42,000 nucleotides of DNA from Rhodophyticola porphyridii (GTDB taxonomy: Bacteria; Pseudomonadota; Alphaproteobacteria; Rhodobacterales; Rhodobacteraceae): contig NZ_RCNT01000013.1 in assembly GCF_003688285.1 (NCBI RefSeq), positions 1,899 through 43,898 on the forward strand. The letters are read 5' to 3'. Of the stretch, positions 11,268 through 27,855 are shown piece by piece. Under the pieces are notes generated by a model. That model did no database searches. It was not told the origin of the DNA and saw nothing but the letters and a program-made list of their open reading frames with translations. The position numbers were made by a program, and so were the translations under genes. Positions within the stretch are counted from its first letter, which is position 1; the number at the start of each line of letters is the position of its first letter.

Positions 11268-12257
11268 CTATTGCTCCAGCATGACCACCGTTTGCCCAAA
11301 TGCGTTCGCCTGCTCGACGTGAAGATGCGCCTCGGCGCAGCGGTCGAGGGGAAATGTGGCGGCGATGGGGATTTCCAGGTCATGGGTCGCAAGCCAGTGC
11401 TGGCCCTGCTCACGCGCGTTTTCGGGTAAAGCGAAGCCCTGGATGAAGCGGATATTCGCGCCCCTGGACGCGAAGGCGTAGTAGTCGAGAACCGGCATCG
11501 GGTCCGACGTGCTTGAGTAGCTGGCGATGATCCCATTCGGTTTGATCACCCGCGCATCCGCGGCCTGATTGGCCGCGAAATCGACTTCGACGATGCGGTC
11601 GACGCCTTCCCCATCGGTCAGTTCCCGGACTTTGCCGACAACGTCTTCGTCGTGGCGGTTGATCGGCGTACCGCCCAGGGCCCGCACACGCTCGACGTCC
11701 GATGATCTGCCGACCGTCGCAATGACACGGGCGCCGTCCTTTCGCGCGATCTGCACCGCGAGATAGCCGACGGCGCCCGCACCTCCCTGAATCAGAACCG
11801 TTTTGCCCGCAACCGGGCCATCCGACAGGACGGACCGGTGGGCGGTCATCGCAGGCACGCCCAGACACGCGCCCTGCGCCATCGTGAAATGGTCCGGCAG
11901 GGGGACTGCCTGCGCTTCGGGCAGCGCTACGAACTCGGCCGCCGTCCCGAACGCGCGGCCAGCTTGCCCGTAGCCCCCTTGCGCATTCCACAGCCAGACA
12001 CGCTGGCCCACCCGATCGGCGCTGACGCCTTCTCCGACCGCTTCGATCGTGCCTGCACCATCGCAATGCGGGATGATCAGCGGGTGGTCCATTTGCATGC
12101 CGGCCCAGCCCGCCCGGCGCTTGACGTCCGCAGGGTTGATGCCGGAGGCCGCGATCCTCACCAGAACGTTCCCCGGGCCGGCGACCGGCGCGGGGAAACG
12201 TCCCAGTTGCAGCACCTCGGCCGCCGGGCCCGTGGTTTTATAGTGAACCGCCCGCAT
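11268..12257 (-). CDS. MDR-family zinc-independent alcohol dehydrogenase / NADPH:quinone oxidoreductase
   Basis: The 329-residue protein has a GroES-like N-terminal domain (AASGINPADVKRR) and a Rossmann domain with the nucleotide motif GGAGAVGYLAVQ near residues 158-169. Structural-zinc cysteines are absent, which fits the quinone reductase branch. It should reduce quinones or enones with NAD(P)H in the cytoplasm. The start overlaps the M28 stop by one base (TGATG), so both genes are in one minus-strand operon. IclR-type control is inferred from the operator-like sequence upstream of the M28 gene. Its role in the pathway is unclear; it may simply handle a reactive carbonyl product. Confidence 0.85.
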   Translation of the reverse strand: MRAVHYKTTGPAAEVLQLGRFPAPVAGPGNVLVRIAASGINPADVKRRAGWAGMQMDHPLIIPHCDGAGTIEAVGEGVSADRVGQRVWLWNAQGGYGQAGRAFGTAAEFVALPEAQAVPLPDHFTMAQGACLGVPAMTAHRSVLSDGPVAGKTVLIQGGAGAVGYLAVQIARKDGARVIATVGRSSDVERVRALGGTPINRHDEDVVGKVRELTDGEGVDRIVEVDFAANQAADARVIKPNGIIASYSSTSDPMPVLDYYAFASRGANIRFIQGFALPENAREQGQHWLATHDLEIPIAATFPLDRCAEAHLHVEQANAFGQTVVMLEQ

Positions 12258-13981
12258 CAGCCGGCGACGAGCGAAATGTGCCGCGTTGCCTGTCTGAGTG
12301 CTGCAACCAGCCGGTTCTGCCCGCGCACCAGTTGGTTTTGGGCAAAGCCGAGCGTGTCGTCGTGCTGGTCGAGCTCCGCCGCCGTGTAGATCGTCGGCAG
12401 CGGCGGTATCGTGGCCGCAGGGTCGTGACGAAAGCGCGGTTCGCGACAGAAATTGATCGGCACGAGAATACGGGCAAGGTCCTGAATGACCGTGTTCGCC
12501 TTGTCTTCGGCCAGTTTCCCGGCGCGGGCCGCTGCATAGAACGCCTCAAGCGCATCCAGAAGATGCTGCGCAGCCTCGGCTGACGGAGAGAGGTCGAACC
12601 GGTCGCCTGCGGCTGCCTGATACTGCGTTATCGTATCCTGAAACTCCCGCGCCGTTATGCGCCAATCAAAGGGCAGGATCCCGGCATTGACCGTGCGCAG
12701 GATGGCCAGGAGGTAAACCTTGATGTCGCGCTCTAGGATATCCTTGTCGGCGATTTCGAGCGTGTCGTTTTCCGTATGCCAAGCGATGTTGGCGCCGCAG
12801 CCACCGACCGTGTAATACCCCTTCTCTTCCCGCAAGACCGTCGGCATCGTGGAGGACAGCATGAAGTAGCCCGAGATGCCGATGTTGTTGAAGGAATAGT
12901 CGCCCGCCCGGTGCGGTCGTTCCCCTTCGGCGGCCTTGCCTGCAACCTCCTGGATGACGGCGCTGATCATGTCGTCGGTCTCTGGCATGCGCGACAGGTT
13001 CAGGAACTCGGTCGCCCAACGGCAGCCGGGGCTGTCGCAGTTGACCTGGGCCACACAGTTTTCTTCGAGGTCGAGAGCGAAGGCATCCGCGTACCATGTC
13101 GAGCCTGCATAGCGCCCCGTGGAGTGGCCGGGCCACCAGCAGATCCGCACTGACCGGCGCAGCTTGTCGCGGTTCGCCCAAAGGATGCGGGCAATCTCCA
13201 GCATGCAGGCATCTCCGACGGCATTGTCGCCGACGCCCACGTCCCAACTGTCGAGGTGACCGTGCAGGAGGACGTATTTGTCGGCCTCTTCCGTGCCGGG
13301 GATCACGACCTCGACGAGCTTGCTGTCAAACCAGCCCTCTTCCATTTCGGTGAATATCGTGGCGTCGCCGCCGTTCTTGGCCAGCGCGATCAGCGCCTCT
13401 CCGTCGGGCTTGTTGACCGCGACGGCGGGGATGCCCGGTTTTCTCGGCAGATCGTCAAGGTCGGGGACGCCCCAGATCGTCGTGCAGATCCCCCAGTGAA
13501 TATCGACGCCCGGGTTGATCGCGATGACGCCGACGGCGCCGAGATCCTCGAACTGCCGCACCATGACCGGGCTTGCGAAACCTTCGGAGATAACGATTGC
13601 CCCATTTGCAAGGCCTGCCATATCCGCCGCGCCATCAATCTTGACGTCGAACATGTCGTCGATGTCGTCCACCGCATTGGCTCCGAGATAGACAAGCGGG
13701 GCCGTCACCCCGCCACGGGCATCTGTGGCATAGGCCGGCGGTTTGGCGCGGTAGGTCGTGCCGGATGCCTCTACCCGCGCGGCACCGGGCAGGCTGAGAT
13801 AGAGAGATGGCTTGTGGACCGTCGCGGGGACGCCATGGCGCGAGAGGCGTTCAACCACCTCGTCCATTCCGCGGTTCACATCATCGGGGTGCTCCCGCTT
13901 GAAGGTGGCGAAGCTTTCCACCAGACCCCAGGGCTCTTCCATCGTCACCTGGTCGAGAATTGCGGTTTCAGAAGTCTTCAT
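12257..13981 (-). CDS. M28-like metallopeptidase with PA-type insert and unusual catalytic motif
   Basis: The 574-residue protein contains a protease-associated insert (about residues 90-210, GAIVISEGFASPVMVRQFED) and an M28 zinc-peptidase core from about 235. Zinc ligand candidates are H242 in LLHGHLDSWD, D252 in GVGDNAVG and D316 in VNCDSPG, with another histidine in AWHTEND. In canonical M28 enzymes a Glu-Glu pair precedes a G-x-x-GS stretch; here that position reads GHSTGRYAGS, with no glutamate. The start at 13981 is preferred because GAGGTG lies 7 bp upstream; a longer reading uses TTG. No signal peptide is visible. It probably belongs to a divergent branch of the family acting on a peptide-like substrate, and peptidase activity is uncertain. 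Confidence 0.8.
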   Translation of the reverse strand: MKTSETAILDQVTMEEPWGLVESFATFKREHPDDVNRGMDEVVERLSRHGVPATVHKPSLYLSLPGAARVEASGTTYRAKPPAYATDARGGVTAPLVYLGANAVDDIDDMFDVKIDGAADMAGLANGAIVISEGFASPVMVRQFEDLGAVGVIAINPGVDIHWGICTTIWGVPDLDDLPRKPGIPAVAVNKPDGEALIALAKNGGDATIFTEMEEGWFDSKLVEVVIPGTEEADKYVLLHGHLDSWDVGVGDNAVGDACMLEIARILWANRDKLRRSVRICWWPGHSTGRYAGSTWYADAFALDLEENCVAQVNCDSPGCRWATEFLNLSRMPETDDMISAVIQEVAGKAAEGERPHRAGDYSFNNIGISGYFMLSSTMPTVLREEKGYYTVGGCGANIAWHTENDTLEIADKDILERDIKVYLLAILRTVNAGILPFDWRITAREFQDTITQYQAAAGDRFDLSPSAEAAQHLLDALEAFYAAARAGKLAEDKANTVIQDLARILVPINFCREPRFRHDPAATIPPLPTIYTAAELDQHDDTLGFAQNQLVRGQNRLVAALRQATRHISLVAG

Positions 13982-14006
13982 GGCACACCTCGTTGTTTCA
14001 TCTGAC

Positions 14007-14018
14007 AAAACAAAGTTT
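14007..14018. promoter_or_regulatory. Operator-like motif upstream of the M28 gene
   Basis: AAAACAAAGTTT lies about 26 bp before the M28 start and is followed at once by a second small palindrome, TTCAT-CAA-ATGAA (14016-14028). A near-identical AAAACAATGTTTT lies in the divergent promoter of the IclR gene. The pair is a candidate binding element for the adjacent IclR regulator. Confidence 0.4.
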
Positions 14019-14075: not shown

Positions 14076-14849
14076 TCAGCTGGCGCCTGTGAGACCGAGC
14101 TTGCCACTGATTTCGGCAGCGGCTTCTTCTATAAGCGCGAGATAGCGGCGGCGGCGGGTTTCATCGTACCGCGCCATCGCGCCCGCAACGGACAAGGACG
14201 CGATGACGTCCCCGGAGGCGCTTCGGATCGGCGCCGCGATGGAAAACGCCCCATCGTCGAGATCGTTGATGGCAATGTGGAAGCCATCGGCGCGGATCAT
14301 ATCCAGCCGCGCGCGAAGGTCATCGGGGTCTGTTGCGGTGTTGGAGGTGAAGCGCTCCAGCGGTTCTGCCAGGACCGCTTCCCGGACGTCTTCCGGAGCA
14401 AATGCGAGCAGCAGCATGGATCCTCCCCCGGCGTGCAGCGGCCCGTATCGCCCCGGATTGGCGAAGATTCGCATGGCGTGATGGCCGGCGAGCGTCGCTA
14501 GAACAAGGGATTGGTGCCCATCCCGCAGAATCAGGTTGATGTTCTCCGTCGTGTCATCGCGCAAGCGCTCCATCACCGGGCGGGCGGCCGTCATCAGGGT
14601 GTTCTGCGCTCCGGCCTGCTCGCCAAGAACACCTATCCGATAGCCCAGAGAATAGACGGCTTTGTCACCATCCCGAAACACGAAGCCCCGTGCCTCAAGG
14701 GTCGAAAGCAGCCGAAAGACGATGGTTTTGGTCATTCCCAGGCGGGAGGCAAGTTCCGTCACGCCTTGTCTCGGATGGCTCGCCAAAGCTTCCAGCACAC
14801 GCAGGGCGCGGTCGACGGCAGCTATGGTGTAGTCGCGGGGTTCAGACAT
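14076..14849 (-). CDS. IclR-family transcriptional regulator
   Basis: The 257-residue protein has an N-terminal winged helix-turn-helix (AVDRALRVLEALASHP, then VTELASRLGMTKTIVFRLLSTLEARG) and the IclR effector domain (GQHxx-like NLILRDGHQSLVLAT, a GRYGPLHAGGGSMLLLAF pocket segment and SIAAPIRSASGDVIASLSV). The ATG at 14849 is preferred over an upstream TTG because it starts where family similarity begins. It is divergent from the racemase/ABC/hyu operon and lies directly upstream of the M28/MDR pair, so it likely controls both arms. The effector is probably the pathway substrate or an intermediate. Confidence 0.9.
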   Translation of the reverse strand: MSEPRDYTIAAVDRALRVLEALASHPRQGVTELASRLGMTKTIVFRLLSTLEARGFVFRDGDKAVYSLGYRIGVLGEQAGAQNTLMTAARPVMERLRDDTTENINLILRDGHQSLVLATLAGHHAMRIFANPGRYGPLHAGGGSMLLLAFAPEDVREAVLAEPLERFTSNTATDPDDLRARLDMIRADGFHIAINDLDDGAFSIAAPIRSASGDVIASLSVAGAMARYDETRRRRYLALIEEAAAEISGKLGLTGAS

Positions 14850-14883
14850 TTTCGGCCCTACTCTTTTTACGTGAGGCTTGCTT

Positions 14884-14943
14884 TGCAATAAATTTGCAGC
14901 ATACTGACTTTAAAACAATGTTTTGCTTAGTGAAACACTGTTC
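14884..14943. promoter_or_regulatory. Divergent promoter region with palindromic elements (candidate IclR operators)
   Basis: This AT-rich interval separates the IclR gene from the racemase gene. It contains TGCAA-TAAAT-TTGCA (14884-14898), AAAAC-AAT-GTTTT (14912-14924) and a partial copy GAAAC-ACT-GTTC (14932-14943). The middle element recurs upstream of the M28 gene. The -35/-10 boxes are not clear enough to call. Confidence 0.45.
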
Positions 14944-14958
14944 TTTCAGGGGATGGCG

Positions 14959-15714
14959 ATGAAAATTGCATATGTTGTACCGGGGCCGATGTCGAAAGGT
15001 CCGATGGGGCGAACGGAGATGCAGCGCCGGGAGGCGCTGATGAATGGCTGGGCGTTCGATGGTACAGAGGTGTCGGTGATCGATGTGCCGTCCGGCCCGG
15101 CCTCGATCGAATCCGCTTACGAGGAGATGCTCGCGATCCCGCCGACCCTCGATCTGATCATGGAATGCGAGAAGAAGGGTTTTGATGCCGCCATCATCGG
15201 CTGTTTCGGTGACCCGGGGCTGGAGGCGGCCCGTGAGCTGGTCACGATGCCGGTTGTCGGCCCATGCGAAAGCGCCATGCTTCTGGCCGCGGCGCTCGGG
15301 CACAAGTTCAGTGTCCTGACGATTTTTGAAAGCCTGATCGCCGGGCAGGAAATGCTTGCCGTCCATGCCGGGGTCCGTGCGAAACTTGCGTCGGTCCGTC
15401 CGACCGATATCCCCGTTCTGGAACTCATGGCCGATCCCGAAGTGACCAAGGCGCGGCTGATCGACGTGGCCCGCGCTTGTGTCGAACAGGACCGCGCCGA
15501 CGCCCTTCTGTTCGGCTGCATGACAATGTCCTTCCTCGATATGGGCGATGAGATCGCCGCCGAGGTTGGCGTGCCGGTCGTCAATGCGGGGCGGGCCGCG
15601 GTGAAACATGCAGAAATGCTGGTTTCCATGGGATTGGCCCATTCGAAAAAAGCATGGCCCACGCCTGCAAAGATGAAGGCGGGCAAAACCGCCTCTGACA
15701 TGCGCGTCGCTTGA
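14959..15714 (+). CDS. Hydantoin/aspartate racemase-family protein
   Basis: The 251-residue protein has the two-cysteine active site of the Asp/Glu/hydantoin racemase family: C82 in GCFGDPGLEAARE and C187 in FGCMTMSF. The GC-x-x-DPG form and the spacing match hydantoin racemase (HyuE-type) more than aspartate or glutamate racemase. It would invert the alpha-carbon of a cyclic or N-substituted amino acid through a cofactor-free two-base mechanism in the cytoplasm. The ATG at 14959 is preferred over 14953 because AGGGG (14948-14952) then has 6-nt spacing. It is the first gene of the long plus-strand operon and is divergent from the IclR gene. Confidence 0.85.
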   Translation: MKIAYVVPGPMSKGPMGRTEMQRREALMNGWAFDGTEVSVIDVPSGPASIESAYEEMLAIPPTLDLIMECEKKGFDAAIIGCFGDPGLEAARELVTMPVVGPCESAMLLAAALGHKFSVLTIFESLIAGQEMLAVHAGVRAKLASVRPTDIPVLELMADPEVTKARLIDVARACVEQDRADALLFGCMTMSFLDMGDEIAAEVGVPVVNAGRAAVKHAEMLVSMGLAHSKKAWPTPAKMKAGKTASDMRVA

Positions 15715-15763: not shown

Positions 15764-17413
15764 ATGACACTGCCCTTAAGAACATCTGCCTTTGCCGCCA
15801 TGCTGTCGGCCACCGTGCTGTCGCCCGTGATGGCCGATGAGATCCGAACCATCAACCTCGTCACACGACCGCAGGCTGCGCAGCCTGCCGAGTTCCAGTT
15901 TACCCAGCTGATTGCCCAGGAGTGGCGCAGGCTCGGTCTTGATGTGAATGTCGAAGTGATGCCCTGGGAGCAGATGATCCAGGCGATCTGGTTCAGCCGT
16001 GATGACTGGGACACGACAGCCTGGCAAATGGTCGGCCGCCCCGAGCGGTCCGACCCTGACGAGATCGTCTACAACCTGTTCCATTCCACGACGGCGGAGC
16101 AGGGCTTCAACTTCATCGGTTACAACAACCCGGAATACGACGCGCTGGTCGAACAGCAGCGCGTGACGCTCGACCCCGACGAGCGGCGCGAGATTGTCCG
16201 GGCGGCACAGGCGATGCTCGCTGAAGATCAGCCCAACATGATGCTTGCGCACCCGCAATCGACCTACGCGTTCAATACCTCTGTCTGGAACCCCGACACC
16301 GTGGTGGACCAGTCCGGCATCGGCATCCGCAATACCTGGAGCTATCTCCAGATGGAGCCGCTGGGCGATGTCACCGACATCATCCTTAACTCGTCTGACA
16401 ACGTTACCGCGATCAACCCGCTCTATATCTCCGGGGGTACGGACAGCTGGATCACGGAGCTTGTGTATGATCGTCTGATGCGGATCGGGCCCGATGGCCT
16501 GCCGCAACCCTGGGCGGCCGAAAGCTACGAGTGGATCGACGACACAACAATCAGGGTCACGCTCCGCGAGGGGATGACGTGGCATGACGGCATGCCGGTG
16601 ACGCCCGAAGACGTGGCATTCTCGTTCGAAGCTGCCGGATCGGGCGAAGCGCCCATGTATGGCCCCTTCGTCGGGAGCATTGCCGATATCACCATCGACG
16701 GCATGGACATCACCTTCTCCCTGACCGAGCCGTCGGCACCGTTCCTCACCGCGAGCCTGTCGAAGATCAACCTGATCCCGATGCATATCTGGGAGCCGGT
16801 GATCGCCGAACAGCTGACCCTCGACACAAACGCCGAGTCGTTTCAGGAAGAGGTGCCGATCGGCTCCGGGCCCTACCGTTTCGGAAGCTGGACCCTGAAC
16901 GAGGAGGTCGTGCTGGAAGCCAATGCCGAGCATTGGGCCGCCCCGAAAGCGGATCGCTGGATCCTGCGGATCGTGCCAAATGTCGAGGCGGCGCTTGGGA
17001 TGCTCCGCTCGGGCGAGATCAACTTCCTGTCGGACTTCCCCGGCGATCCGACCGTCGTGGTGGCGGCAGCGGATGAAGATCCCAACCTGACCGCGGTCTC
17101 GACCGTCGATATCGGCTTCCGCTATGTCGCCTTCAACCACCGTCGGCCGCCGTTCAACGACCCAGCTTTCCGCCGCGCGTTGTCGGCTTCGGTCGATCGC
17201 AGGCTCATCGTGGGTGCCGCGTTCCGCGGGTTCGCCGTACCGTCGAATTCGGTCGTCTCTCCGGCGCTTGGCTTCTGGCACAATGAAGCCACGGTCGAGG
17301 GCATGGAGGCCGGTATCGAGTTGGCCCAGCAGATGCTGGAAGATGCCGGCTACATGGTGGTCGACGGCCGGCTGCACTACCCCGAAGGCGTGTCCGAGAC
17401 GTTGGGCGAATGA
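15764..17413 (+). CDS. ABC transporter family 5 (peptide-type) substrate-binding protein with apparently permuted domain order
   Basis: The 549-residue protein begins with a signal peptide (cleavage after VMA, residue 24). Residues about 28-196 resemble the C-terminal part of dipeptide-binding proteins (GYNNPEYDALVEQQR, then LDPDERREIVRAAQAMLAEDQP and a STYAFNTSVW segment). Residues from about 202 then resemble the normal N-terminal part (AINPLYISGG, LVYDRLMRIGPDG, REGMTWHDGMPVTPEDVAFSFE), followed by the normal middle (IGSGPYRFGSW, FNHRRPPFNDPAFRRALSASVDRR). It ends at GYMVVDGRLHYPEG, where the C-terminal segment would usually start. This is the order expected of a circular permutation. Its own permeases and ATPases follow directly. 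The ligand is probably a short or modified peptide or cyclic amide. Confidence 0.85.
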   Translation: MTLPLRTSAFAAMLSATVLSPVMADEIRTINLVTRPQAAQPAEFQFTQLIAQEWRRLGLDVNVEVMPWEQMIQAIWFSRDDWDTTAWQMVGRPERSDPDEIVYNLFHSTTAEQGFNFIGYNNPEYDALVEQQRVTLDPDERREIVRAAQAMLAEDQPNMMLAHPQSTYAFNTSVWNPDTVVDQSGIGIRNTWSYLQMEPLGDVTDIILNSSDNVTAINPLYISGGTDSWITELVYDRLMRIGPDGLPQPWAAESYEWIDDTTIRVTLREGMTWHDGMPVTPEDVAFSFEAAGSGEAPMYGPFVGSIADITIDGMDITFSLTEPSAPFLTASLSKINLIPMHIWEPVIAEQLTLDTNAESFQEEVPIGSGPYRFGSWTLNEEVVLEANAEHWAAPKADRWILRIVPNVEAALGMLRSGEINFLSDFPGDPTVVVAAADEDPNLTAVSTVDIGFRYVAFNHRRPPFNDPAFRRALSASVDRRLIVGAAFRGFAVPSNSVVSPALGFWHNEATVEGMEAGIELAQQMLEDAGYMVVDGRLHYPEGVSETLGE

Positions 17414-17447
17414 GCCTGACTGAACCAGAGCAGAAGGGACTGGCAGA

Positions 17448-18425
17448 GTGAAGGCGATCACCGTTATCGGCGCGCGCTTGCTGCAAACAGCGTTCGTCCT
17501 GTTGGCGGTGATCACCATTCTGTTTTTTATGTTCCGGTTGATGCCGGGCAGCCCGCTCGCGGCCTATATCGACCCGAATTTCACACCCGAGCAGCAGGCC
17601 GAACTGATGGCCCGCTTCGGCCTCGATCAGCCGCTCTGGCGACAGTATCTGATCTATCTGGGCAATCTCCTCCAGGGCGATCTGGGGGAGAGCTTCTTCT
17701 ATCGCCAACCTGTCGCCGAACGGGTTCTGGCGCTTTTGCCGAACACGCTGATCCTGACGTTCAGCTCCCTGATCCTGGCATATGTATTCGGCGTTCTTGC
17801 CGGCGCGTATCTGGCCTGGAAGCGCGGCTCGGTCGTCGAGCAGATATGTGTGCCCTTGGTTCTGACCACGCGCGCGATGCCAGAGTTCTGGCTTGGCATG
17901 CTCTTGCTGGCGGTGTTCAGTTTCGGCATGGGATGGTTCCCCGCGGGCGGGACAAGGCCGCCGGGCGCGGAATACGATTCCCTCTGGGCGCTCTACAGCT
18001 CTGCCGATTTCTGGTGGCACATGACCTTGCCGGTCATGACCTTGGCTATCTACAGTCAGGGACTTCCGCTGTTGCTCATGCGATCGAACATGATGGATGT
18101 CATGCGGGAGGATTTCGTCACCATGGCGCGGATCAAGGGCCTTTCGACCTTCTCGGTCGTGATCCGCCACGCGGCCCGTAACGCGCTGCTGCCCGTCATG
18201 ACATCCTTCGCCATCGCTGTCGGCTACCAGATCCAGGGCAATGTGGTGGTGGAAACGGTGTTCTCCTGGCCCGGGCTTGGGCGTGAACTGGTGCGCGCCG
18301 TCTCGACAGCGGATTACCCGCTGGCGCAGGGCGCGTTTCTGATGATCGCGGTTGTCGTGATCCTGATGAACCTCGTTGCGGACCTTCTTTATGCGGCGCT
18401 TGATCCACGGGTGACCCATGAGTGA
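17448..18425 (+). CDS. Dipeptide/nickel-type ABC transporter permease (DppB-like)
   Basis: This 325-residue inner-membrane protein has about six transmembrane segments, the first at residues 10-32 (LLQTAFVLLAVITILFFMF). The PGSP motif, the GLDQPLWRQYLIYLGNLLQGDLG-type periplasmic segment and the permease/ATPase contact loop (DFVTMARIKGLS near residue 225) mark the DppB/OppB class. The start is GTG at 17448, preceded by AGAAGGGA. It forms the translocation channel with the next gene's product. The stop overlaps the start of the second permease gene by 8 bp. Confidence 0.92.
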   Translation: MKAITVIGARLLQTAFVLLAVITILFFMFRLMPGSPLAAYIDPNFTPEQQAELMARFGLDQPLWRQYLIYLGNLLQGDLGESFFYRQPVAERVLALLPNTLILTFSSLILAYVFGVLAGAYLAWKRGSVVEQICVPLVLTTRAMPEFWLGMLLLAVFSFGMGWFPAGGTRPPGAEYDSLWALYSSADFWWHMTLPVMTLAIYSQGLPLLLMRSNMMDVMREDFVTMARIKGLSTFSVVIRHAARNALLPVMTSFAIAVGYQIQGNVVVETVFSWPGLGRELVRAVSTADYPLAQGAFLMIAVVVILMNLVADLLYAALDPRVTHE

Positions 18426-19332
18426 GAGCGTGACCTCTAAGCACCGACCGTCTGGCCTGTTTGCACGCCTGCGCCGCAGGTTTGGTTCGATCCGCCTGCC
18501 GCTGCACGATCCGCTCGCGGTTATCGGTCTGTGCATATACGTGTTCTTCATTCTCATGGCGGTCTTTGCGCCCCTTATCGCGCCCCACGACCCCAACGAG
18601 ATCCTTTTCACGTCCGAATTCGCCCTGGCGGCTGATCTGACACCGGGTACGGACGGGTACATTCTGGGGACGACGACTCTCGGCAGGGATATCTTCTCGC
18701 AAATCGTCTGGGGTGCCCGTTCCGCCCTTCTGATCGGGCTCACCGCAGCCTTCGTGGTGGCGCTCATCGGGTCGGTCGTGGGCATCGTTGCGGGCTATTT
18801 CGGGGGGTGGGCGGACACGGTGCTGATGCGCCTGGCGGATGTGGCGTTCGGCATTCCGTTCCTGCCCTTCGTCATCGTGCTTGCTGCGTTTCTCGAACCG
18901 TCTATCTGGAACGTCGTGATCGCCATGGCGCTGGTCTTGTGGCGCGATACGGGCCGGGTGATCCGAAGCCAGACGCTGACCCTGCGCAACCGGGCGTATG
19001 TGGAGGCCGCGCGCGTGGCAGGCTCCTCCGACCTGAAGATCATCCTGCGCCACATCGCGCCAAACGTCTTGCCGCTGTCCTTCCTCTATGGCTCCATCGC
19101 CATCGGCTGGGCGATCCTGACCGAGGCGTCGATCAGCTTTCTTGGGTTCGGCGATCCGGATTCCATCAGCTGGGGCTACATGCTCCAGGATGCTTTCGCC
19201 TCGCAGGCGCTCTCCAAAGGGTCCTATTACTGGTTCGTGCCTCCGGGCTTTCTGATCATCCTGATCGTTTCGGCGGGGTTCTTCATCTCCCGCGGATACG
19301 AGCAGATCCTCTTTCCGAAGCTTGACCGATGA
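18418..19332 (+). CDS. Dipeptide/nickel-type ABC transporter permease (DppC-like)
   Basis: The 304-residue protein has the DppC/OppC layout: a cytoplasmic N-terminus rich in arginine, a first membrane helix (DPLAVIGLCIYVFFILMAVFA region), a periplasmic loop with the LGTTTLGRDIFSQIVWGAR motif, and the EAA contact loop RAYVEAARVAGSSDLKIILRH. About six membrane segments are seen. It pairs with the upstream permease to make the inner-membrane pore. It overlaps both neighbours (8 bp upstream, ATGA downstream). Confidence 0.92.
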   Translation: MSESVTSKHRPSGLFARLRRRFGSIRLPLHDPLAVIGLCIYVFFILMAVFAPLIAPHDPNEILFTSEFALAADLTPGTDGYILGTTTLGRDIFSQIVWGARSALLIGLTAAFVVALIGSVVGIVAGYFGGWADTVLMRLADVAFGIPFLPFVIVLAAFLEPSIWNVVIAMALVLWRDTGRVIRSQTLTLRNRAYVEAARVAGSSDLKIILRHIAPNVLPLSFLYGSIAIGWAILTEASISFLGFGDPDSISWGYMLQDAFASQALSKGSYYWFVPPGFLIILIVSAGFFISRGYEQILFPKLDR

Positions 19333-20345
19333 CACAGCCGCTCTTGACCCTCAAAGACCTCAGCATCGCGTACCGGGTGGGCGACCAGGACACGATTGCC
19401 GTCGAAGGGGCGAGCTTTGATGTTCAGCCCGGCAGCATCGTGGGCCTTGTCGGCGAAAGCGGCTGCGGCAAGACCACGCTGGCGCGCTCCCTCACACGGG
19501 TGCTCGCGGGCAACGCGCGGATTGCCGGCGGCGAGGCGATTTTTGACGGGCGCGATATCATGGCCCTGTCGGAACGGGCGATGAACGGCCTGCGCTGGCG
19601 CGAGATCGCGTTCATTCCGCAATCGGCGATGAACTCGCTCGATCCGGTCTACACGGTCGGTACGCAACTGGCGGAGGTATTGATCCGCCGCGGCGGGTTG
19701 GGGCGCACCGCCGCGCGCACGCGCGCCGAGGAACTGTTTGAATGGGTTGGGATCGAGACCAACCGGCTTGGCGATTATCCGCACCAGTTCTCCGGCGGGA
19801 TGCGTCAGCGCGTGGCCATTGCGCTGGCATTGGCGCTGGACCCGAAACTGATCATCGCGGATGAACCCGTGACGGCGCTTGACGTCATCGTACAGCGTCA
19901 GATCCTCGACCAGCTGCGCGAGTTGAAAGAACGTCTGGGGATTTCCGTCATCCTTGTGACCCATGACATCTCGGTCGTGGCCTATGTTTGCGACCGTGTG
20001 GTGGTGATGTATGCGGGCCGCGTGGTCGAAACCGGGCCGATGGCCGCGACGCTGACGGCCCCTGCGCATCCCTACACGATGGGGCTGCGCAACGCCTTTC
20101 CCGATCTGGCCAGCGCCGCCGGAGAGCTGACGCCGATCGAAGGCGCACCCCCCGATCTGGCCAGCCCGCCGCCCGGCTGCCGGTTCGCGCCGCGTTGTCC
20201 GTTTGCGGAGGCCAGGTGCCGCACGGATGTGCCCGGTCTTGACGTCTATGACGGCGACCATCTGGCCGCCTGCCACCGTATCCCCGAGGCGGAAACCCTG
20301 AGGGCACGGGCAGTGGTATCCGAGACCTGGGAGGCTCCGGCATGA
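19329..20345 (+). CDS. Dipeptide-type ABC transporter ATP-binding protein (DppD-like)
   Basis: This 338-residue ATPase shows Walker A GESGCGKTT, a Q-loop at IPQSAMNSLDP, the signature FSGGMRQR, Walker B LIIADEP followed by VTALD, and the H-loop in LVTHDIS. The C-terminal oligopeptide-type domain carries the PPPGCRFAPRCPFAEARC cysteine cluster, which in this subfamily can bind an Fe-S cluster or metal. It powers import together with the next gene's product. Its start overlaps the permease stop (ATGA). Confidence 0.93.
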   Translation: MTQPLLTLKDLSIAYRVGDQDTIAVEGASFDVQPGSIVGLVGESGCGKTTLARSLTRVLAGNARIAGGEAIFDGRDIMALSERAMNGLRWREIAFIPQSAMNSLDPVYTVGTQLAEVLIRRGGLGRTAARTRAEELFEWVGIETNRLGDYPHQFSGGMRQRVAIALALALDPKLIIADEPVTALDVIVQRQILDQLRELKERLGISVILVTHDISVVAYVCDRVVVMYAGRVVETGPMAATLTAPAHPYTMGLRNAFPDLASAAGELTPIEGAPPDLASPPPGCRFAPRCPFAEARCRTDVPGLDVYDGDHLAACHRIPEAETLRARAVVSETWEAPA

Positions 20346-21343
20346 AGGACGGACACGACCAGGGTCCCCCGCTCGTCCGGCTTGACGCAGCGGAGCTGCA
20401 TTTTCCCGTTGGCGGCGTGGTGGCGCAACTGCAAGGCCGCGCCACCGTGGTCAAGGCTGTCGACGGCGTCACCTTCGAGTTGCGCCGGGGCGAAAGCGTG
20501 GGCCTGCTGGGTGAAAGCGGCTGCGGAAAGACCTCGACCGGGCGGATGCTTGTGCGGCTGGACAAGGCGACCGGGGGCCGTGTGGAGTTCGATGGCGAAG
20601 ATGTCAGCGGGCTGACAGGGGATGCTCTGAAACGGTTTCGCAGCCGGGTCCAGCTTATCTTTCAGAACCCGTTCGAGGCATTGAACCCGCGTTTCACGAT
20701 CCGCGATGTTCTGGCAGAACCGCTTGAGAATGCGCGCATTCCCAGAGCCGAGCACGAGGAAAGGATCCTGCGCGCCATGGCGCTGGTCAAGCTTGGCGAC
20801 GCGGGGCAGTTCATGGACCGCTATCCGCACCAACTGTCAGGCGGTCAACTTCAGCGAATCGTGATGGCCCGCGCCCTGATCCTTGAGCCGGAGTTCGTCG
20901 TCGCGGACGAACCCGTATCGATGCTCGACGTATCGGTCCGCGCCGGCGTGTTGAATGTGTTTCGGGACGTGCGGGCGCAACAGGGGATCACGGCGATCTA
21001 TATCAGTCACGATCTGGCGCTGGTGAGGTATGTCTGCGAACGCACCATCGTGATGTATCTGGGTCGGATCGTCGAAGACGGCCCGACGGAGGATATCGTC
21101 GCCAACCCGCTGCACCCCTATACACAGGCGCTGGTCGCGGCCGTGCCCGTGCCCCACCCGGATCAAAGCCACGCGCCGCTGCCCATCGGACGCGGTGCCC
21201 CCGATCCGCGCAACCCGCCCTCGGGCTGTACATTTCGCGACCGTTGTCCGCGCGCCTTCGACCGTTGCGCGGTTGAGGCACCCGGCCCGACGCATGTCCA
21301 GAACCGGATCGTTCACTGCCACCTTCATGAACCGAAGACGTGA
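20342..21343 (+). CDS. Dipeptide-type ABC transporter ATP-binding protein (DppF-like)
   Basis: This 333-residue ATPase shows Walker A GESGCGKTS, Q-loop IFQNPFEALNP, signature LSGGQLQR, Walker B VVADEP with VSMLD, H-loop YISHDLA and the C-terminal NPPSGCTFRDRCPRAFDRC oligopeptide-type cluster. It is the second nucleotide-binding subunit of the importer. It is coupled to the first by an ATGA overlap, and only 3 bp separate its stop from hyuB. The importer and the catabolic enzymes are therefore one transcription unit. Confidence 0.93.
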   Translation: MKDGHDQGPPLVRLDAAELHFPVGGVVAQLQGRATVVKAVDGVTFELRRGESVGLLGESGCGKTSTGRMLVRLDKATGGRVEFDGEDVSGLTGDALKRFRSRVQLIFQNPFEALNPRFTIRDVLAEPLENARIPRAEHEERILRAMALVKLGDAGQFMDRYPHQLSGGQLQRIVMARALILEPEFVVADEPVSMLDVSVRAGVLNVFRDVRAQQGITAIYISHDLALVRYVCERTIVMYLGRIVEDGPTEDIVANPLHPYTQALVAAVPVPHPDQSHAPLPIGRGAPDPRNPPSGCTFRDRCPRAFDRCAVEAPGPTHVQNRIVHCHLHEPKT

Positions 21344-21346
21344 CCC

Positions 21347-23161
21347 ATGACCTATGCCGCCGACATGAACACCTCCGCCGACCCGATCTGTGATCCGATC
21401 ACGCTCGAGATCATTCAGGGCGCCATCCAGGCTGCGCAAAGCGAAATGGAGGCATTGATCGAACGCACTGCGATCTCGGCTTTCATCCGCGAGAAGAAGG
21501 ACTTCTACACCGCGATTTTCGATCGCAATGGCGTGATGGCCGTGGGCTCGATGGTGCCGATCTTTGGCGACATCACCACGCCGGTATTCGAGCATTTTCC
21601 GATTGAAGCAATGCAGGACGGGGACCTGTATTGGTACAATGATTGCTATGGCTCCTATGGCGCGGTGAGCCATTCCAACGATCAGGTGCTGCTGGCGCCC
21701 GTGTTCCACAACGGCCGGCGCGTGGCCTTCGTGATGAGTTGGGCGCATTTTGCGGATATCGGCGGCATGCGGCCCGGCTCGATCAGCCCCGATGCGACCG
21801 AGATCTGGCAGGAGGGGATCATTATCCCGCCGACCAAGCTGATCGAGGCCGGTGCCGTGAACGACGCCGCGCTTGCCATCTTTCACCGAAACTCCCGTTT
21901 CCCCGCGCAAAGCGAGGGCGATATGAGCGCATTGATGGCCAGTGTGCGGCTTGGTGCGCAGCGTATGACGGAGGCGTCGGACCGTTTCGGGGCTGCGGTT
22001 CTTGAAGATGCCCTTGCCCAGCTTCTCGACCGGACGCGGCGCCTAGTCAGGCGCAAGCTGGCGGAAACCTTCGATTACGGCACGCATCGCTTCACCGATG
22101 CCATCGATAGCGACGGCCATGGCAACGGGCCGTTTCATCTGCGCTTCGCCATCATCCGTGAGAAGGGCCCGGACGGGGCCGACCGGTTCATCTTCGACGC
22201 TACCGAGACCGACGATCAGGCGCCCGGACCGGTCAACCTTCTGATGAACCGCTCCATCCCGGGCATGGCTTTGGGATTGTTCTATCTGGGCGGAGAACCC
22301 GGGCAGGTCTGTAACGCAGGGGGACCCCTCGCGCTGGACGAGGTGCGTCTGCGCGAAGGCTCGCTGGTGAAACCGAACTGGCCGGCGCCGCTTGGAATGC
22401 GTGGCCTGACGATGATGCGGGTGCTGGCGACGCTGAATGGGCTGGTCAACGCGGCCGGCGGACAGGCGCCGGCGGCACAGGCGGCTTATGTCGTGGCGCT
22501 CATTCGGGGCAGCTATACCGCGGAGGACGGGACCGCGACCCCGTTTCTTCTGGCCGATGGCATCGGCGTCGGCTATGGCGCGCGCGCCTTTGCCGACGGT
22601 ATGGACGCCGTCTATTTCGTGGCGCAGGAAAACTATCCGATCGAGTTCACAGAGCTTGGCTACCCCGTGTCCTTCAGAACCTATGGCATGGTGATGGACA
22701 GCGGTGGCCCCGGCGCGTTTCGCGGCGGAACGGGAATACTGCGGGAGTACGAAATCCTCGCCGATCACGCGATGCTGGGCATTCGCATCGATGGCGTTGA
22801 AAACCCACCCTGGGGGATCAATGGCGGGAAGTCGGGCGCGCCCGGGCGCATCGTGATCAACCCGGGCATGGCCGATGAAAGGGTTCTGCCGCCTCTGTCG
22901 GATGGCACGATGCTGAAGAAGGGCGATGTGGTGCGCATAGAAACCGGTGGCGGCGGGGGCTACGGACACCCCTTTGACCGACCGGCTGCGAAGGTTTTGG
23001 AGGATGTGCTTGCCGGGCTTGTCAGCAACGAGGCCGCAGCACGCGAATACGGGGTCGCCGTCACCGGGCGACAGGTCGACGAGGCCGAAACTGCGCGGCT
23101 GAGAACCGCGCGGCCCGTGGTCAAACCTTTTCACCGCAAGGAGTATCTCGATGTCCTTTGA
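21347..23161 (+). CDS. hyuB: HyuB-type subunit (N-methylhydantoinase B / oxoprolinase beta)
   Basis: The 604-residue protein has the family N-terminus (DPITLEIIQGAIQAAQSEMEAL), the IREKKDFYTAIFD segment, the metal-site-like ND-x-x-x-S-Y-G and H-x-x-D region (WAHFADIGGMRPGSI), and the GGGGGYGHPFDR motif near the C-terminus. With HyuA it forms an ATP-dependent ring-opening amidohydrolase of the N-methylhydantoinase/5-oxoprolinase/acetophenone-carboxylase superfamily. The real substrate class cannot be read from sequence; neighbouring racemase and peptidases favour a hydantoin or lactam. It overlaps hyuA by 11 bp. Confidence 0.9.
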   Translation: MTYAADMNTSADPICDPITLEIIQGAIQAAQSEMEALIERTAISAFIREKKDFYTAIFDRNGVMAVGSMVPIFGDITTPVFEHFPIEAMQDGDLYWYNDCYGSYGAVSHSNDQVLLAPVFHNGRRVAFVMSWAHFADIGGMRPGSISPDATEIWQEGIIIPPTKLIEAGAVNDAALAIFHRNSRFPAQSEGDMSALMASVRLGAQRMTEASDRFGAAVLEDALAQLLDRTRRLVRRKLAETFDYGTHRFTDAIDSDGHGNGPFHLRFAIIREKGPDGADRFIFDATETDDQAPGPVNLLMNRSIPGMALGLFYLGGEPGQVCNAGGPLALDEVRLREGSLVKPNWPAPLGMRGLTMMRVLATLNGLVNAAGGQAPAAQAAYVVALIRGSYTAEDGTATPFLLADGIGVGYGARAFADGMDAVYFVAQENYPIEFTELGYPVSFRTYGMVMDSGGPGAFRGGTGILREYEILADHAMLGIRIDGVENPPWGINGGKSGAPGRIVINPGMADERVLPPLSDGTMLKKGDVVRIETGGGGGYGHPFDRPAAKVLEDVLAGLVSNEAAAREYGVAVTGRQVDEAETARLRTARPVVKPFHRKEYLDVL

Positions 23162-25208
23162 TGGTGCGGATTCCGCGCGCGGGGCGGGGCCTGCGCTGAC
23201 GCTTGCAGTGGATATTGGCGGCACGTTTACAGATGTTGCGCTTGCAGATATCGCGACGGGGCAGGTCTGGCGGGCCAAGACGCCTTCCCGTCCCGATGAC
23301 CCGTCGGAGGCGTTTCTGACCGGGCTGCGTCTGGCCCTGCGCGCTGCGGGCGCTGTGCCCGGTGACCTGCGTCAGGTTCTGCATGGAACCACCGTCGCGA
23401 CCAACATGATCCTTGAAGGCAAGGGCGCACGGGCGGCCCTCGTGACGACCCGCGGGTTCCGCCACGTGCTCGGGATCGGGCGACAGGACATCCCCCGCGC
23501 GGCCAATCTCTACAACTGGATCAAGCCCGAGCGCCCCGTGCCGGCCTCGCGGATTGTGGAGGTGGCTGAGCGTGTCCTGCCCGGCGGCGTCGTCACTCAG
23601 CCGCTGGACGAAGACAGCGTTGCAGCCGCCGCTGAGTCGCTTCGCGAGATGTGCGTCGATGCGGTGGCCATCTGTCTGCTACATGCTTTCGCCAACCCCG
23701 AACACGAGCGTCGTACCGCCGAGATCCTGCGGGCCGCCCTGCCGGGCATTGCGGTCACGGCATCCTCGGATGTGCTGCCCGTGGTGCGGGAGTATGAGCG
23801 GACATTGGCATCGGTGCTGAACGCCATCGTGATGCCCGGCGTCACGAAATACGTAGGGCGAATCGAAGACAAGCTCACCGCCGAGGGGGTTCCCGCCCCG
23901 CTCCTTCTGATGCAGTCGAATGGCGGTGTCGCGGGCGCAGACAAGATCCGGTCCGCCCCCGCTCTGACGGCGCTGTCTGGACCCGCTGCAGGTGTCGTGG
24001 GTGCAAGATCCGTTGCGGCAGCATCTGGGATCAATGACATCCTGACAGTCGATATCGGCGGCACAAGTGCGGATATCTGCCTCGTTTCGGGTGGCAAGAT
24101 CGGACTGACGCAACAAGGGCAGGTTGGAGATTGGCCCTTGCCCTTGCCCATGGTCGATATGGTGACAATCGGCGCGGGCGGGGGGTCCATCGCCCGTGTG
24201 GCCGATGGTGTGCTGACGGTCGGACCGGAAAGCGCCGGGGCCACGCCGGGGCCCGCGGCTTATGGCCGGGGTGGGACCGAGGCGACCGTGACCGATGCGC
24301 ATGTGGTGTTGGGGCACCTGCCCGCGCGCCTGCTTGGCGGGGACATGGCGCTCGACGTGGTGGCGGCGCGCCGCGCGTTGGAAGACGGCGTCGCCCGACC
24401 GCTTGGCATCGCCGTGGAAGACGCGGCGCGCGGCATTCTCGCCATTGCCGACAACAAGATGGTCGGCGCCCTGCGCGTCGTGTCGGTCGAGCGTGGCTTT
24501 GATCCGCGGGATTTCACGCTTCTTCCCTTCGGCGGCGCCGGCCCGCTCCACGGTTGTGCGCTTGCCGATCTGATTGGTACACGCCGTGTGCTGATCGTGC
24601 CCGCGCCCGGCATTCTATGCGCCGACGGGCTGATGGCGGCGGATCTCAAGTCCGAGTTCAGCCGCGCCCGGCCCCGCGCCGGAGTCGCCGATATGGCGGA
24701 GGCCGAACGGCTTTGCGCAGAGCTTGAAGCAGATGCGGCCGTGTGGTTCGATGCGGAGGATGTGGCGGAGGCCGACCGGCAAACCAGTCGTGTCGCCCTC
24801 TTGCGCTATGCCGGTCAGGGCAATGAACTGGCCGTCCCGTGGGCCGACACGGTCGAGGCGTTGGAGGCGGGCTTCGTGGCCGCCCACCGGGCCCTTTACG
24901 GGTTCGAGCTGAGCGCACCGATCGAGCTTGTGACGCTGCGGGTCGAAGCCCGCGCCACCATGCAGGCGCTTGCCCCGGCCGTGCTTGCCCCGGGCGATCC
25001 GCCGGTGCCGGTGGATCACGTGCCCATAGCCTTGCCATCGGGCCGGCAGACTGTCCCGCTTTTCGACCGATCCACCATGAAGGCCGGCGCAATCATTGAA
25101 GGCCCCGCAATCGTAAGCCAACTTGACACCACAACCCTGATCACGCCCGGCTGGACCGGCACGGTGCAAACCTCGGGCGCGCTTCTGTTAACCAAGGCCG
25201 ACACATGA
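23151..25208 (+). CDS. hyuA: HyuA-type subunit (N-methylhydantoinase A / oxoprolinase alpha)
   Basis: This 685-residue protein has the Hydantoinase_A_N nucleotide-binding motif (LAVDIGGTFTDVAL, residues 18-31), HGTTVATNMILEGKGA, the second actin-fold phosphate loop (TVDIGGTSADICL, around residue 300) and GAGGGSIA. The pair FGGAGPLHG is also characteristic. It binds and hydrolyses ATP to activate the amide for cleavage by HyuB. The order HyuB-HyuA and the tight overlap are usual for the family. Length is normal. Confidence 0.92.
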   Translation: MSFDGADSARGAGPALTLAVDIGGTFTDVALADIATGQVWRAKTPSRPDDPSEAFLTGLRLALRAAGAVPGDLRQVLHGTTVATNMILEGKGARAALVTTRGFRHVLGIGRQDIPRAANLYNWIKPERPVPASRIVEVAERVLPGGVVTQPLDEDSVAAAAESLREMCVDAVAICLLHAFANPEHERRTAEILRAALPGIAVTASSDVLPVVREYERTLASVLNAIVMPGVTKYVGRIEDKLTAEGVPAPLLLMQSNGGVAGADKIRSAPALTALSGPAAGVVGARSVAAASGINDILTVDIGGTSADICLVSGGKIGLTQQGQVGDWPLPLPMVDMVTIGAGGGSIARVADGVLTVGPESAGATPGPAAYGRGGTEATVTDAHVVLGHLPARLLGGDMALDVVAARRALEDGVARPLGIAVEDAARGILAIADNKMVGALRVVSVERGFDPRDFTLLPFGGAGPLHGCALADLIGTRRVLIVPAPGILCADGLMAADLKSEFSRARPRAGVADMAEAERLCAELEADAAVWFDAEDVAEADRQTSRVALLRYAGQGNELAVPWADTVEALEAGFVAAHRALYGFELSAPIELVTLRVEARATMQALAPAVLAPGDPPVPVDHVPIALPSGRQTVPLFDRSTMKAGAIIEGPAIVSQLDTTTLITPGWTGTVQTSGALLLTKADT

Positions 25209-26596
25209 CCGAAGATACTGAAATCCCCGACACGCTGGCTGCGGTCTTCGACTATATCGAGGCGAACCGCGATGACCATCTGCGGCGCGTTATAGACTAC
25301 GTCAAACACCCATCGATCAGCGCCCATGATATCGGCATTCGCGAAGTTGCGGCGATGCTGGTCGAGCACCTGAGCGGGCTCGGTTTTGAAGCCGAGGCCG
25401 TTCCGACATCGGGGCATCCGATGGTTCTGGGTCATCGGTGTGAGGCGCCCGGCAAACCGACCGTCCTGCTTTACGGCCATTACGATGTGCAGCCGCCAGA
25501 TCCGCTGGAGGCGTGGATCACTCCACCATTCGAGCCGACGATCCGTGACGGGCGCATCTATGCGCGCGGGATCGGAGACAACAAGGGCCAGCATTTTGCG
25601 CAGCTTCTGGCGCTGGAGGCCCATCTGAAGGTCACCGGGACCTTGCCCTGCAACGTGATCTTCCTGCTGGAGGGAGAAGAGGAAATCGGCTCCCCCCGGA
25701 TTGCGGAATTCGTCGGTGCCCATGCGGACCGTCTGAAAGCCGATCTGGTGGTGACCGCCGATGGCCCGCTGCACCCCTCGGGCCGACCGATCGTGACCTT
25801 TGGTGTGCGTGGCATGGCCGGATTTGAACTGGTCGTCAAAACCGGTCGGACGGACGCTCATTCCGGCAATCATGGCGGCACGATGCCCAATGCATTGTGG
25901 ACGCTTGTTCACCTCTTGGGCACCATGAAGGATGCGGAGGGGCGGATCACGATAGAGGGCCTGCACGATCCGGTGCGCCCGCCTACCAATGCCGAACGGG
26001 CCGCTGCGGACTCCCTGCCGGTCGACGTGCCCGCATATCTCGAGTCCATGGGGCTTGGCCGTCTGGATGCGCCTGCCGACCGACCGTTCCATGACCGGTT
26101 GATGTTCCACCCGACTCTGACGATCAACGGCATTCACGGCGGCTATGGCGGCCCAGGCACGAAAACGGTGCTTCCTGCAGAGGCGATTGCGAAATGCGAC
26201 ATCCGCCTTGTTCCGGACATGACGCCGGAACAGGCGGTGGCCTGCGTCCGTGCCCATGTCGAAAAACACGCGCCCGAGGGCGAGGTTGAGGTGGTCATGA
26301 GCGGCAGCGGCATGTTGCCGTCGCGCACATCGCTCGACAATAGGTTCGCGTCGGCGATTGTCGATGCCGTGCGGACCGCGCGCGGGGTCGAGCCTTATCT
26401 TTACCCGAGCATTGGCGGCAGCCTGCCGGATTACGCCTTTACCAAGACGCTGGGGCTTCCCGCCTTCGTCACACCCTATGCAAACGCGGACGAGGCCAAT
26501 CACGCCCCGAATGAAAACCTTGAGATCTCTCTCTTTCATGACGGCATCCGCACCGGCGCCGCGTTGCTCGACAGGTTGGGCAGAATGTCGATATGA
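25205..26596 (+). CDS. M20-family metallopeptidase (dipeptidase/carboxypeptidase type)
   Basis: This 463-residue protein has the complete M20 di-zinc site: H and D in LLYGHYDVQPP, the bridging aspartate in RGIGDNKGQ, the catalytic/ligand glutamates in LEGEEEIGSP, D in VTADGP and the C-terminal H in ANHAPNE. A dimerisation domain lies at about 200-375, containing RTDAHSGNHGG. It would hydrolyse a peptide or N-carbamoyl/N-acyl amino acid in the cytoplasm. After HyuAB, hydrolysis of an N-carbamoyl amino acid or dipeptide is a sensible step. It overlaps hyuA and the next gene by ATGA. Confidence 0.9.
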   Translation: MTEDTEIPDTLAAVFDYIEANRDDHLRRVIDYVKHPSISAHDIGIREVAAMLVEHLSGLGFEAEAVPTSGHPMVLGHRCEAPGKPTVLLYGHYDVQPPDPLEAWITPPFEPTIRDGRIYARGIGDNKGQHFAQLLALEAHLKVTGTLPCNVIFLLEGEEEIGSPRIAEFVGAHADRLKADLVVTADGPLHPSGRPIVTFGVRGMAGFELVVKTGRTDAHSGNHGGTMPNALWTLVHLLGTMKDAEGRITIEGLHDPVRPPTNAERAAADSLPVDVPAYLESMGLGRLDAPADRPFHDRLMFHPTLTINGIHGGYGGPGTKTVLPAEAIAKCDIRLVPDMTPEQAVACVRAHVEKHAPEGEVEVVMSGSGMLPSRTSLDNRFASAIVDAVRTARGVEPYLYPSIGGSLPDYAFTKTLGLPAFVTPYANADEANHAPNENLEISLFHDGIRTGAALLDRLGRMSI

Positions 26597-27855
26597 ACGC
26601 GCGCCGCGATCCGGCGGAGACAGGCGTCACCGTCTTTCACAACGCCAGGCTCTGGGACGGTGTGTCCGATGAGGCGTTGGAGAATGCCTCCATCGTGGTC
26701 GAAGGGGCTCGCATCCGCGAGGCTGGCGCGGATGCGCGCCATACCGGTCCGGCACACCGGATTGATTGCGGCGGCCTGTTTCTCATGCCGGGCCTCATCG
26801 ACGCGCATTACCACGCCAACACACCAAGCTACGACTTTTATGGCACCGACCGCATGCATCCCGCGTTGCTCGCCGCCCATGCCGCGCGGCTGCTAACGGG
26901 GGCCGTCGACCGTGGCTATACCACGATCCGGGACGCAGGCGGTGGCGATGTCGGTCTTGCCCAGGCGCTCGATGCCGGTTTGATCGACGGACCGCGGTTT
27001 TTCTACCCCGGCAAGGCCCTGACGCAAACCGGAGGGCACGGTGACATGCGCCGGCGCGGTGAACCGGATCTGTGCGGATGCGGGGAGTATGCGGGCGTCA
27101 TCTGCGAGGCCGTTGATGGACCCCATGAGATGCGCAAAGCCGTGCGCCAGCGGTTCAGACAAGGCGCGACGCAGATAAAGATCTTCCTGTCGGGCGGTGT
27201 CTCGACAGAGCTTGCGCCGCTGGAAATGCCTCATTTCACCGATGCCGAAATTCTGGTTGCGGTCGAGGAGGCGGCGCGGCGCGGATCCTATGTCATGGCC
27301 CATTGCCATACCGATGCCGGCGCGCGGCGGTGCGTCGAACTGGGCGTGCGGACCATCGAGCATGGCAGCCTGATTGAGCCTGAGACGGCCGCTTTGATCG
27401 CTGAGGCCGGTGCATATGTTGTGCCCACGCTCTCCGCGGGTGAGTTGATTGCCGAAAATGCCGAAGCGCTCGGGCTTCCGAAATCCGCGACCGAAAAGGT
27501 GCGGGAGGTCAACAAACGCACGCTGGACGCCATCGAGGCCTGCGTGAGCGCCGGGGTCAAGCTTGGCTTGGGTTGCGACCTGCACGGCGATGTTTTTCTT
27601 CAAACCCAGGGCCGGGAGTTGCTTTTGCGCGGACAGGTGCAGCGGCCCGTGGATGTCCTGCGTTCGGCGACGTCGATCAATGCAGAGATCGTTCAGCGCG
27701 CGGGCGAGCTGGGCCGGATCGCAGCCGGCGCGCTTGCGGATCTGATCCTTGTCGATGGCGACCCGTTGAGCGACTTGTCGGTCTTCGTCTCATCCGCCAA
27801 GACCGTTCGATTGGTGATGATCGATGGCAAGATCCGCAGGGATCGTCGCGTCTGA
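26593..27855 (+). CDS. Metal-dependent amidohydrolase (imidazolonepropionase/prolidase-like)
   Basis: The 420-residue protein belongs to the amidohydrolase superfamily. It shows the H-x-H ligands in GLIDAHYHAN, the carbamylated-lysine candidate in IKIFLSGG, histidines in MAHCHTD and IEHGSLI, and the aspartate in GLGCDLHGD. An N-terminal composite beta domain returns at the C-terminus (GALADLILVDGDPL), as in the Xaa-Pro dipeptidase and imidazolonepropionase-like group. It likely cleaves an amide of a processed intermediate. It is the last gene of the operon. The following 250 bp, to the convergent TRAP operon, hold no recognisable gene or T-rich hairpin. Confidence 0.88.
   Translation: MNARRDPAETGVTVFHNARLWDGVSDEALENASIVVEGARIREAGADARHTGPAHRIDCGGLFLMPGLIDAHYHANTPSYDFYGTDRMHPALLAAHAARLLTGAVDRGYTTIRDAGGGDVGLAQALDAGLIDGPRFFYPGKALTQTGGHGDMRRRGEPDLCGCGEYAGVICEAVDGPHEMRKAVRQRFRQGATQIKIFLSGGVSTELAPLEMPHFTDAEILVAVEEAARRGSYVMAHCHTDAGARRCVELGVRTIEHGSLIEPETAALIAEAGAYVVPTLSAGELIAENAEALGLPKSATEKVREVNKRTLDAIEACVSAGVKLGLGCDLHGDVFLQTQGRELLLRGQVQRPVDVLRSATSINAEIVQRAGELGRIAAGALADLILVDGDPLSDLSVFVSSAKTVRLVMIDGKIRRDRRV

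Follow-up and report, generated by a model that had tools for sequence, protein, structure and literature searches.

Binding proteins of family 5 (cluster C; PF00496, SBP_bac_5), among them DppA, OppA, AppA and NikA, are very common components of importers. Their chains conventionally run from an N-terminal lobe through a middle part to a C-terminal segment, and this order has been taken for granted.

Natural permutation among binding proteins is nevertheless already known from a different family. TpMglB-2 (Tp0684) of Treponema pallidum and its relatives is a naturally circularly permuted binding protein of an ABC importer, for which the name 'cluster Bc' has been proposed (PMC4990184). In that account, the permutation is common to a group of relatives, ligand is still bound, and the first strands of the chain have moved to the C-terminus with the gain of a fourth hinge crossing; its authors leave open acquisition from another gene, and an advantage in tethering has been proposed (PMC4990184).

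Here we describe a family 5 protein encoded in a 42,000-nucleotide stretch of DNA from the alphaproteobacterium Rhodophyticola porphyridii (contig NZ_RCNT01000013.1, positions 1,899 to 43,898; hereafter the window), in which the usual C-terminal part of the chain stands in front. We put at roughly 0.87 the probability that this protein is circularly permuted, that the permutation has a single origin and that the protein serves as the binding protein of a DppBCDF-type importer. A search of the open-access literature, with subscription papers and database notes mostly beyond its reach, brought up, among the papers listed, no permuted family 5 binding protein recognisable by title or start of abstract, and in full text 'circular permut' and SBP_bac_5 came together in unrelated contexts only; this agrees with a preliminary description of the window, which knew of no permuted branch of the family.

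Segment order in the 549-residue protein

The gene at 15764..17413 on the plus strand opens with ATG and encodes 549 residues, for which PF00496 is the sole Pfam match at E<=10. Against the full protein this profile scores 218.7 bits, above its curated cut-off of 32.4, and in its best stretch profile positions 2-284 align with residues 247-536. When residues 1-200 are searched alone, profile positions 285-366 align with residues 26-111 (E 1e-6), at 28.6 bits, which lies under the curated cut-off. The profile is covered once, almost end to end, with its order swapped, and the chain does not follow the conventional arrangement of the family. In the NCBIfam DppA model, positions 41-368 correspond to residues 216-530 and positions 385-507 to residues 39-165 (residues 1-200 alone; E 7.8e-10), and the same swapped order is returned by the full-length NCBIfam models DppA, Opp4A, Opp5A/NikA, SapA and TIGR04028.

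Sequences from the PDB give a matching picture. Residues 1-200 have 44 distinct matches (E<=1), only to C-terminal parts of ordinary family 5 chains, the best stretch starting at chain position 326 or later in all 44, and the counterpart of residues 201-549 is the N-terminal two thirds of such chains (best 60 of 101 matches). A profile built from the permuted protein with five relatives matched 102 PDB sequences; in the best 60 of these the best-matching stretch does not begin before query residue 200, it corresponds to N-terminal or middle portions of the chain, and the junction between the segments is spanned in none of the 60. No PDB sequence with the permuted order was seen among the 44 matches of residues 1-200 or the best 60 of 102 from the profile search. 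On these sequence comparisons, the product of 15764-17413 is confirmed as a family 5/cluster C binding protein whose C-terminal third lies ahead of its N-terminal two thirds.

Along the plus strand, a probable Sec signal peptide (residues 1-24; 15764..15835), recognised by eye from its hydrophobic start and a cleavage-like site of small residues, precedes the new N-terminus. Segment A, the usual C-terminal segment now in front, takes up residues 27-195 (15842..16348), and segment B, the usual N-terminal two thirds now at the back, residues 204-541 (16373..17386), both delimited by profiles and PDB sequences. From the segment profiles, residues 196-203 (16349..16372) form a linker from the old C-terminus to the old N-terminus, and residues 542-549 with the stop codon (17387..17413) form a new C-terminal tail, at which a conventional chain would continue into segment A. 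The preliminary description had seen a C-terminal-like segment at residues 28-196, straight after the signal peptide, and an N-terminal lobe from about residue 202, boundaries that the profiles reproduce almost exactly; searched separately, the two parts match complementary ends of the family profiles. It had also stated that the chain stops where the C-terminal segment would start, and the profile searches indeed detect no normal C-terminal segment there. On the minus strand, an antisense open frame of 580 residues (15776-17518) runs across nearly the whole gene and is probably a by-product of GC-rich codon use.

Relatives, order test and distribution

The source genome has 26 matches in 21 loci, of which one is permuted, 16 are conventional and four have no detectable C-terminal segment, the N-terminal segment in these four being in its usual place at the start of the chain. 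Scanning public genomes brought up five relatives with the same permuted order: three of 99, 97 and 96% identity come from one record named Boseongicola sp. H5 and two named uncultured Roseicyclus, one of 63% from a Trueperaceae MAG (Deinococcota) and one of 52% from an Anaerolineae MAG (Chloroflexota). Among plasmids, 3379 records match the query and 62 have a place covering at least 80% of it; 15 relatives examined from the 40 matches listed comprise 12 permuted proteins, including the haloarchaeal L019, L021, L022, L062, L063 and L064, and three conventional ones (L023, L060 and L061). The order first proposed from a single chain recurs in relatives from three bacterial phyla and haloarchaea. 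In one of the 12, on the Neorhizobium galegae VafX2 plasmid, the permuted gene (L016:7001-8636) is apparently frameshifted and annotated as two pieces; four other Neorhizobium records carry it in one unbroken piece (tblastn).

Genome surveys were run at E<=1e-40, the best conventional paralogue in the source genome reaching only 4.8e-27, with the best 3-12 candidates scored per genome. Matches were found in 15 of 295 genomes of the same family and 12 of 337 of the same class (source genome counted in both; one of the 12 is a contig-edge fragment covering residues 276-547), in the source genome only out of 398 drawn phylum-wide, and, with the centre genome counted, in 3 of 251 genomes from the phylum of the Anaerolineae genome and 10 of 111 from that of the Trueperaceae genome. 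On these counts the permuted protein is sporadic and not universal. No relative was found in viral contigs, where only two family 5 proteins occurred among 77 pattern-matched loci. Annotated records call the permuted proteins simply 'ABC transporter substrate-binding protein', a generic name that hides the rearrangement.

Profiles of segments A and B, built from permuted proteins, were run on open frames of at least 120 residues from 41 permuted and 18 control loci. This order test returned 41 permuted proteins, 17 conventional ones and six without an assigned order. The permuted loci had been picked by colinear similarity to the query, so that their order was partly selected for; what the test shows is that ordinary relatives, searched with these same profiles, come out in the opposite order. 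No open frame in these loci has segment A doubled, and segment B appears twice only in L181, where the profile is broken into two pieces. At least three of the 17 conventional proteins are neighbours inside permuted loci (L150, L156 and L159), each a 20 kb stretch in which about 6 kb separate a conventional family 5 gene from the permuted one.

The cut site is identical in the 37 permuted proteins compared. Their chains end at most 30 residues past an AGY/AGF-type motif, and segment A comes after a signal-peptide or lipobox-like stretch, as judged by eye on start codons that were not curated. Most of the bacterial proteins have no evident lipobox (by eye). Four haloarchaeal ones (L019, L022, L062 and L064) have, also by eye, a lipobox-like start followed by a polar spacer, which would anchor the protein via a lobe other than that used by conventional relatives. 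A plasmid of Haloarcula sp. JP-L23 encodes a permuted protein (L063:6872-8668) that has diverged strongly and has a longer linker; no permease or ATPase is among the annotated neighbours in the stretch examined, making it an orphan binding protein.

A motif P-x-H-x-W in segment B is present at each of its positions in 45/45 permuted proteins, whereas in the same columns of conventional proteins P occurs in 9/24 and H in 5/24, and the top residue of the W column is F (4/24). The serine of GSGP is likewise found in 45/45 permuted proteins, and threonine is commoner in conventional ones (14/24). Segment A is less conserved than segment B, the lowest identity to the window protein within the permuted group being about 25% in segment B and 18% in segment A.

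Origin and fold of the permuted chain

With both segments concatenated, a tree of 36 permuted and 19 conventional proteins (55 in all) supports the permuted group at 97 and its union with L023 (Cytobacillus) and L060 (Meiothermus) at 100; left out were the duplicates or near-duplicates L001, L009, L035, L038 and L059, L016 with its broken gene, and any protein lacking a segment A match. For 69 proteins (45 permuted, 24 conventional; L011 left out in addition), IQ-TREE trees were built separately from the 168 columns of segment A and the 333 columns of segment B, and each returned, alone, one permuted group of 45 whose sister is L023+L060. Bootstrap values for the group and for the group with its sister are 89/85 (LG+G4) and 63/77 (LG+F+R4) for segment A and 90/99 (LG+F+R4) for segment B, support values being absent for segment B under LG+G4 and for the concatenation of the 69 proteins. 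All trees are unrooted, and taking the conventional order as ancestral rests on its generality in the family. A tree of the DppB and DppC permeases splits permuted from conventional systems at 100 (48 loci: 33 + 15). Its input was 35 of 42 permuted loci (L009, L011, L013, L063, L157, L164 and L165 omitted) and 18 controls, and loci without both genes within 6 kb were dropped, which kept 48 of 53 (33 of 35 permuted, 15 of 18 controls).

Several other histories could produce a chain of this appearance. If a front segment from another family 5 gene had been fused ahead of a truncated binding protein, the resulting chimera would mimic a permutation, and both the lower conservation of segment A and the only moderate support in its trees lean that way. 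Two parent genes should, however, lead to different sisters, and segments A and B taken apart recover the same permuted group with the same sister pair. This speaks for a single permutation of a single gene and makes a chimera improbable. Slightly less probable still is that bacteria and haloarchaea each permuted the protein at this site on their own. The depth of divergence within the group points that way, as does the instability of L063, placed outside the permuted group by an earlier FastTree run of segment A; yet IQ-TREE recovers the group from segment A, from segment B and from their concatenation, the permeases divide in the same manner, and the permuted proteins have their motif in common.

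Two further readings are refuted, and we give them next to no weight. An assembly error or a recent local rearrangement in the source genome conflicts with homologues in the same order, found at 96-99% identity in three other genome records and also in the Trueperaceae and Anaerolineae MAGs and on plasmids of named species. That residues 28-196 are an unrelated extra domain, or a duplicate of the C-terminal segment, conflicts with their match to the C-terminal, and not the N-terminal, positions of the family profiles and with the end of the chain, which lacks a second copy; neither segment recurs within the protein, the only extra matches having E values of 15 and 18, so the relocation rather than duplication suspected at the outset stands. 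The permuted protein gives the impression of an ancient, inherited redesign rather than a sequencing error.

Under a single permutation, one ancestral conventional family 5 gene would have been circularly permuted once. A short linker would have connected the two old termini, and the chain would have been opened at one site, after the AGY/DG helix-hairpin and before the first strand of what used to be the C-terminal segment, with the signal peptide now ahead of the new start. A likely route would be tandem duplication and in-frame fusion followed by trimming of both copies, the first perhaps losing its front behind its signal peptide and the second its end. No A-B-A intermediate was seen in the order test or among the relatives examined.

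The DppA matches place the cut in the interval of about residues 339-358 in the 1dpe/1dpp chains. In DppA and OppA, lobe I contains both of the old termini, close to each other, and lobe II contains this cut, so that lobe I would become continuous and lobe II split, still with two hinge crossings, unlike TpMglB-2 with its added crossing. AlphaFold2 gave a mean pLDDT of 46.3 and a pTM of 0.33 with six alignment rows, and 53.8 and 0.43 from few sequences with two conventional viral-contig fragments added and the signal peptide removed; in a Foldseek search with this low-confidence second model, the best 50 of 410 matches are all named as binding proteins of this kind, at TM scores of only 0.21-0.27, and our reading of the fold does not draw on either model. 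Most likely the permuted protein folds as an ordinary two-lobed flytrap and feeds a DppBCDF-type importer.

Importer, neighbours and comparison with known systems

Permeases and ATPases of Dpp/Opp type are encoded with the permuted protein (17448-21343), namely a DppB-type permease (17448..18425), a DppC-type permease (18418..19332), a DppD/OppD-type ATPase (19329..20345) and a DppF/OppF-type ATPase (20342..21343), all on the plus strand; with these partners the protein most likely catches solute for the importer. On the same strand follow the hydantoinase/oxoprolinase subunits HyuB (B; 21347..23161) and HyuA (A; 23151..25208), whose nearest curated models are caprolactamase beta and alpha, respectively, both below cut-off, an M20-type dipeptidase-like hydrolase (25205..26596) and a hydrolase resembling Xaa-Pro dipeptidase (26593..27855; 231 bits against a cut-off of 500). 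Ahead of the permuted gene lie an Asp/Glu/hydantoin racemase family protein (14923..15714, plus strand) and, on the minus strand, an IclR-family regulator (14076..14888), an M28-family peptidase (12257..14008) and a zinc-type alcohol dehydrogenase/quinone reductase (11268..12257). For a 248-residue plus-strand frame upstream of the operon (9837-10583), a Pfam search at E<=1e-5 was negative.

For each of these neighbours, we counted how many of 41 permuted and 18 control loci contain one or more matches (E<=1e-10), 15 of the controls being from the source genome, L009-L011 being near-identical and stretch lengths differing. M28 was found in 20/41 permuted against 0/18 control loci, IclR in 18/41 against 0/18, HyuB in 13/41 against 0/18, the racemase in 11/41 against 1/18, the quinone reductase in 9/41 against 0/18, the M20-like enzyme in 8/41 against 1/18, HyuA in 7/41 against 0/18 and the Xaa-Pro-like enzyme in 7/41 against 1/18; L013, L151, L158 and L163-L165 end at contig ends, so that misses there mean little. 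The haloarchaeal and several other permuted stretches compared have no HyuAB match, and other permuted loci have creatininase-family and gamma-glutamylcyclotransferase genes among their neighbours. The common theme of the neighbour genes is small cyclic amides and short peptides. The likeliest cargo of the importer in the window, though at less than even probability, would be a small cyclic amide or modified dipeptide (lactam or hydantoin type) that HyuAB opens and that the M28, M20 and Xaa-Pro-like hydrolases then cut. No paper on a HyuAB-linked importer was recognised by title in the open-access literature.

Somewhat better than evenly balanced, in our judgement, is the wider proposal that these proteins form an old and hitherto undescribed branch of cluster C, spread over Deinococcota, Chloroflexota, Alphaproteobacteria and haloarchaea, in which the lobes have exchanged their topological roles while two hinge strands are kept, and which has a permease lineage of its own. 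If true, the flytrap importer architecture would have been permuted in nature a second time, independently of cluster Bc, with the chain start, and in haloarchaea the lipid anchor, shifted to the other lobe. A permuted clade common to bacteria and archaea, with conventional sisters and co-splitting permeases, offers a natural test of flytrap topology, chain ends and anchoring, and its natural opening site may help sensor design.

All recognisable segments of conventional family 5 proteins are also present in the permuted protein, which is of similar total length and has the same Dpp/Opp-type partners; what differs is the order of the segments. The closest conventional group found, for both segments, consists of proteins from plasmids of Cytobacillus pseudoceanisediminis (L023) and Meiothermus taiwanensis (L060), which also lie beside DppB/DppC-type permeases but have the ordinary order and are 29% and 27% identical, respectively, to the window protein in segment A. 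An advantage in tethering, like that put forward for TpMglB-2, was rejected for the bacterial members, given how few have an evident lipobox, and may apply to the haloarchaeal ones. TpMglB-2 is a sugar-binding protein of type I/cluster B, a family to which the window protein, with PF00496 as its one Pfam match, does not belong; and whereas strands of TpMglB-2 have moved to the C-terminus, in the cluster C protein described here the C-terminal third has moved to the front, and both of its segments point to a single parent.
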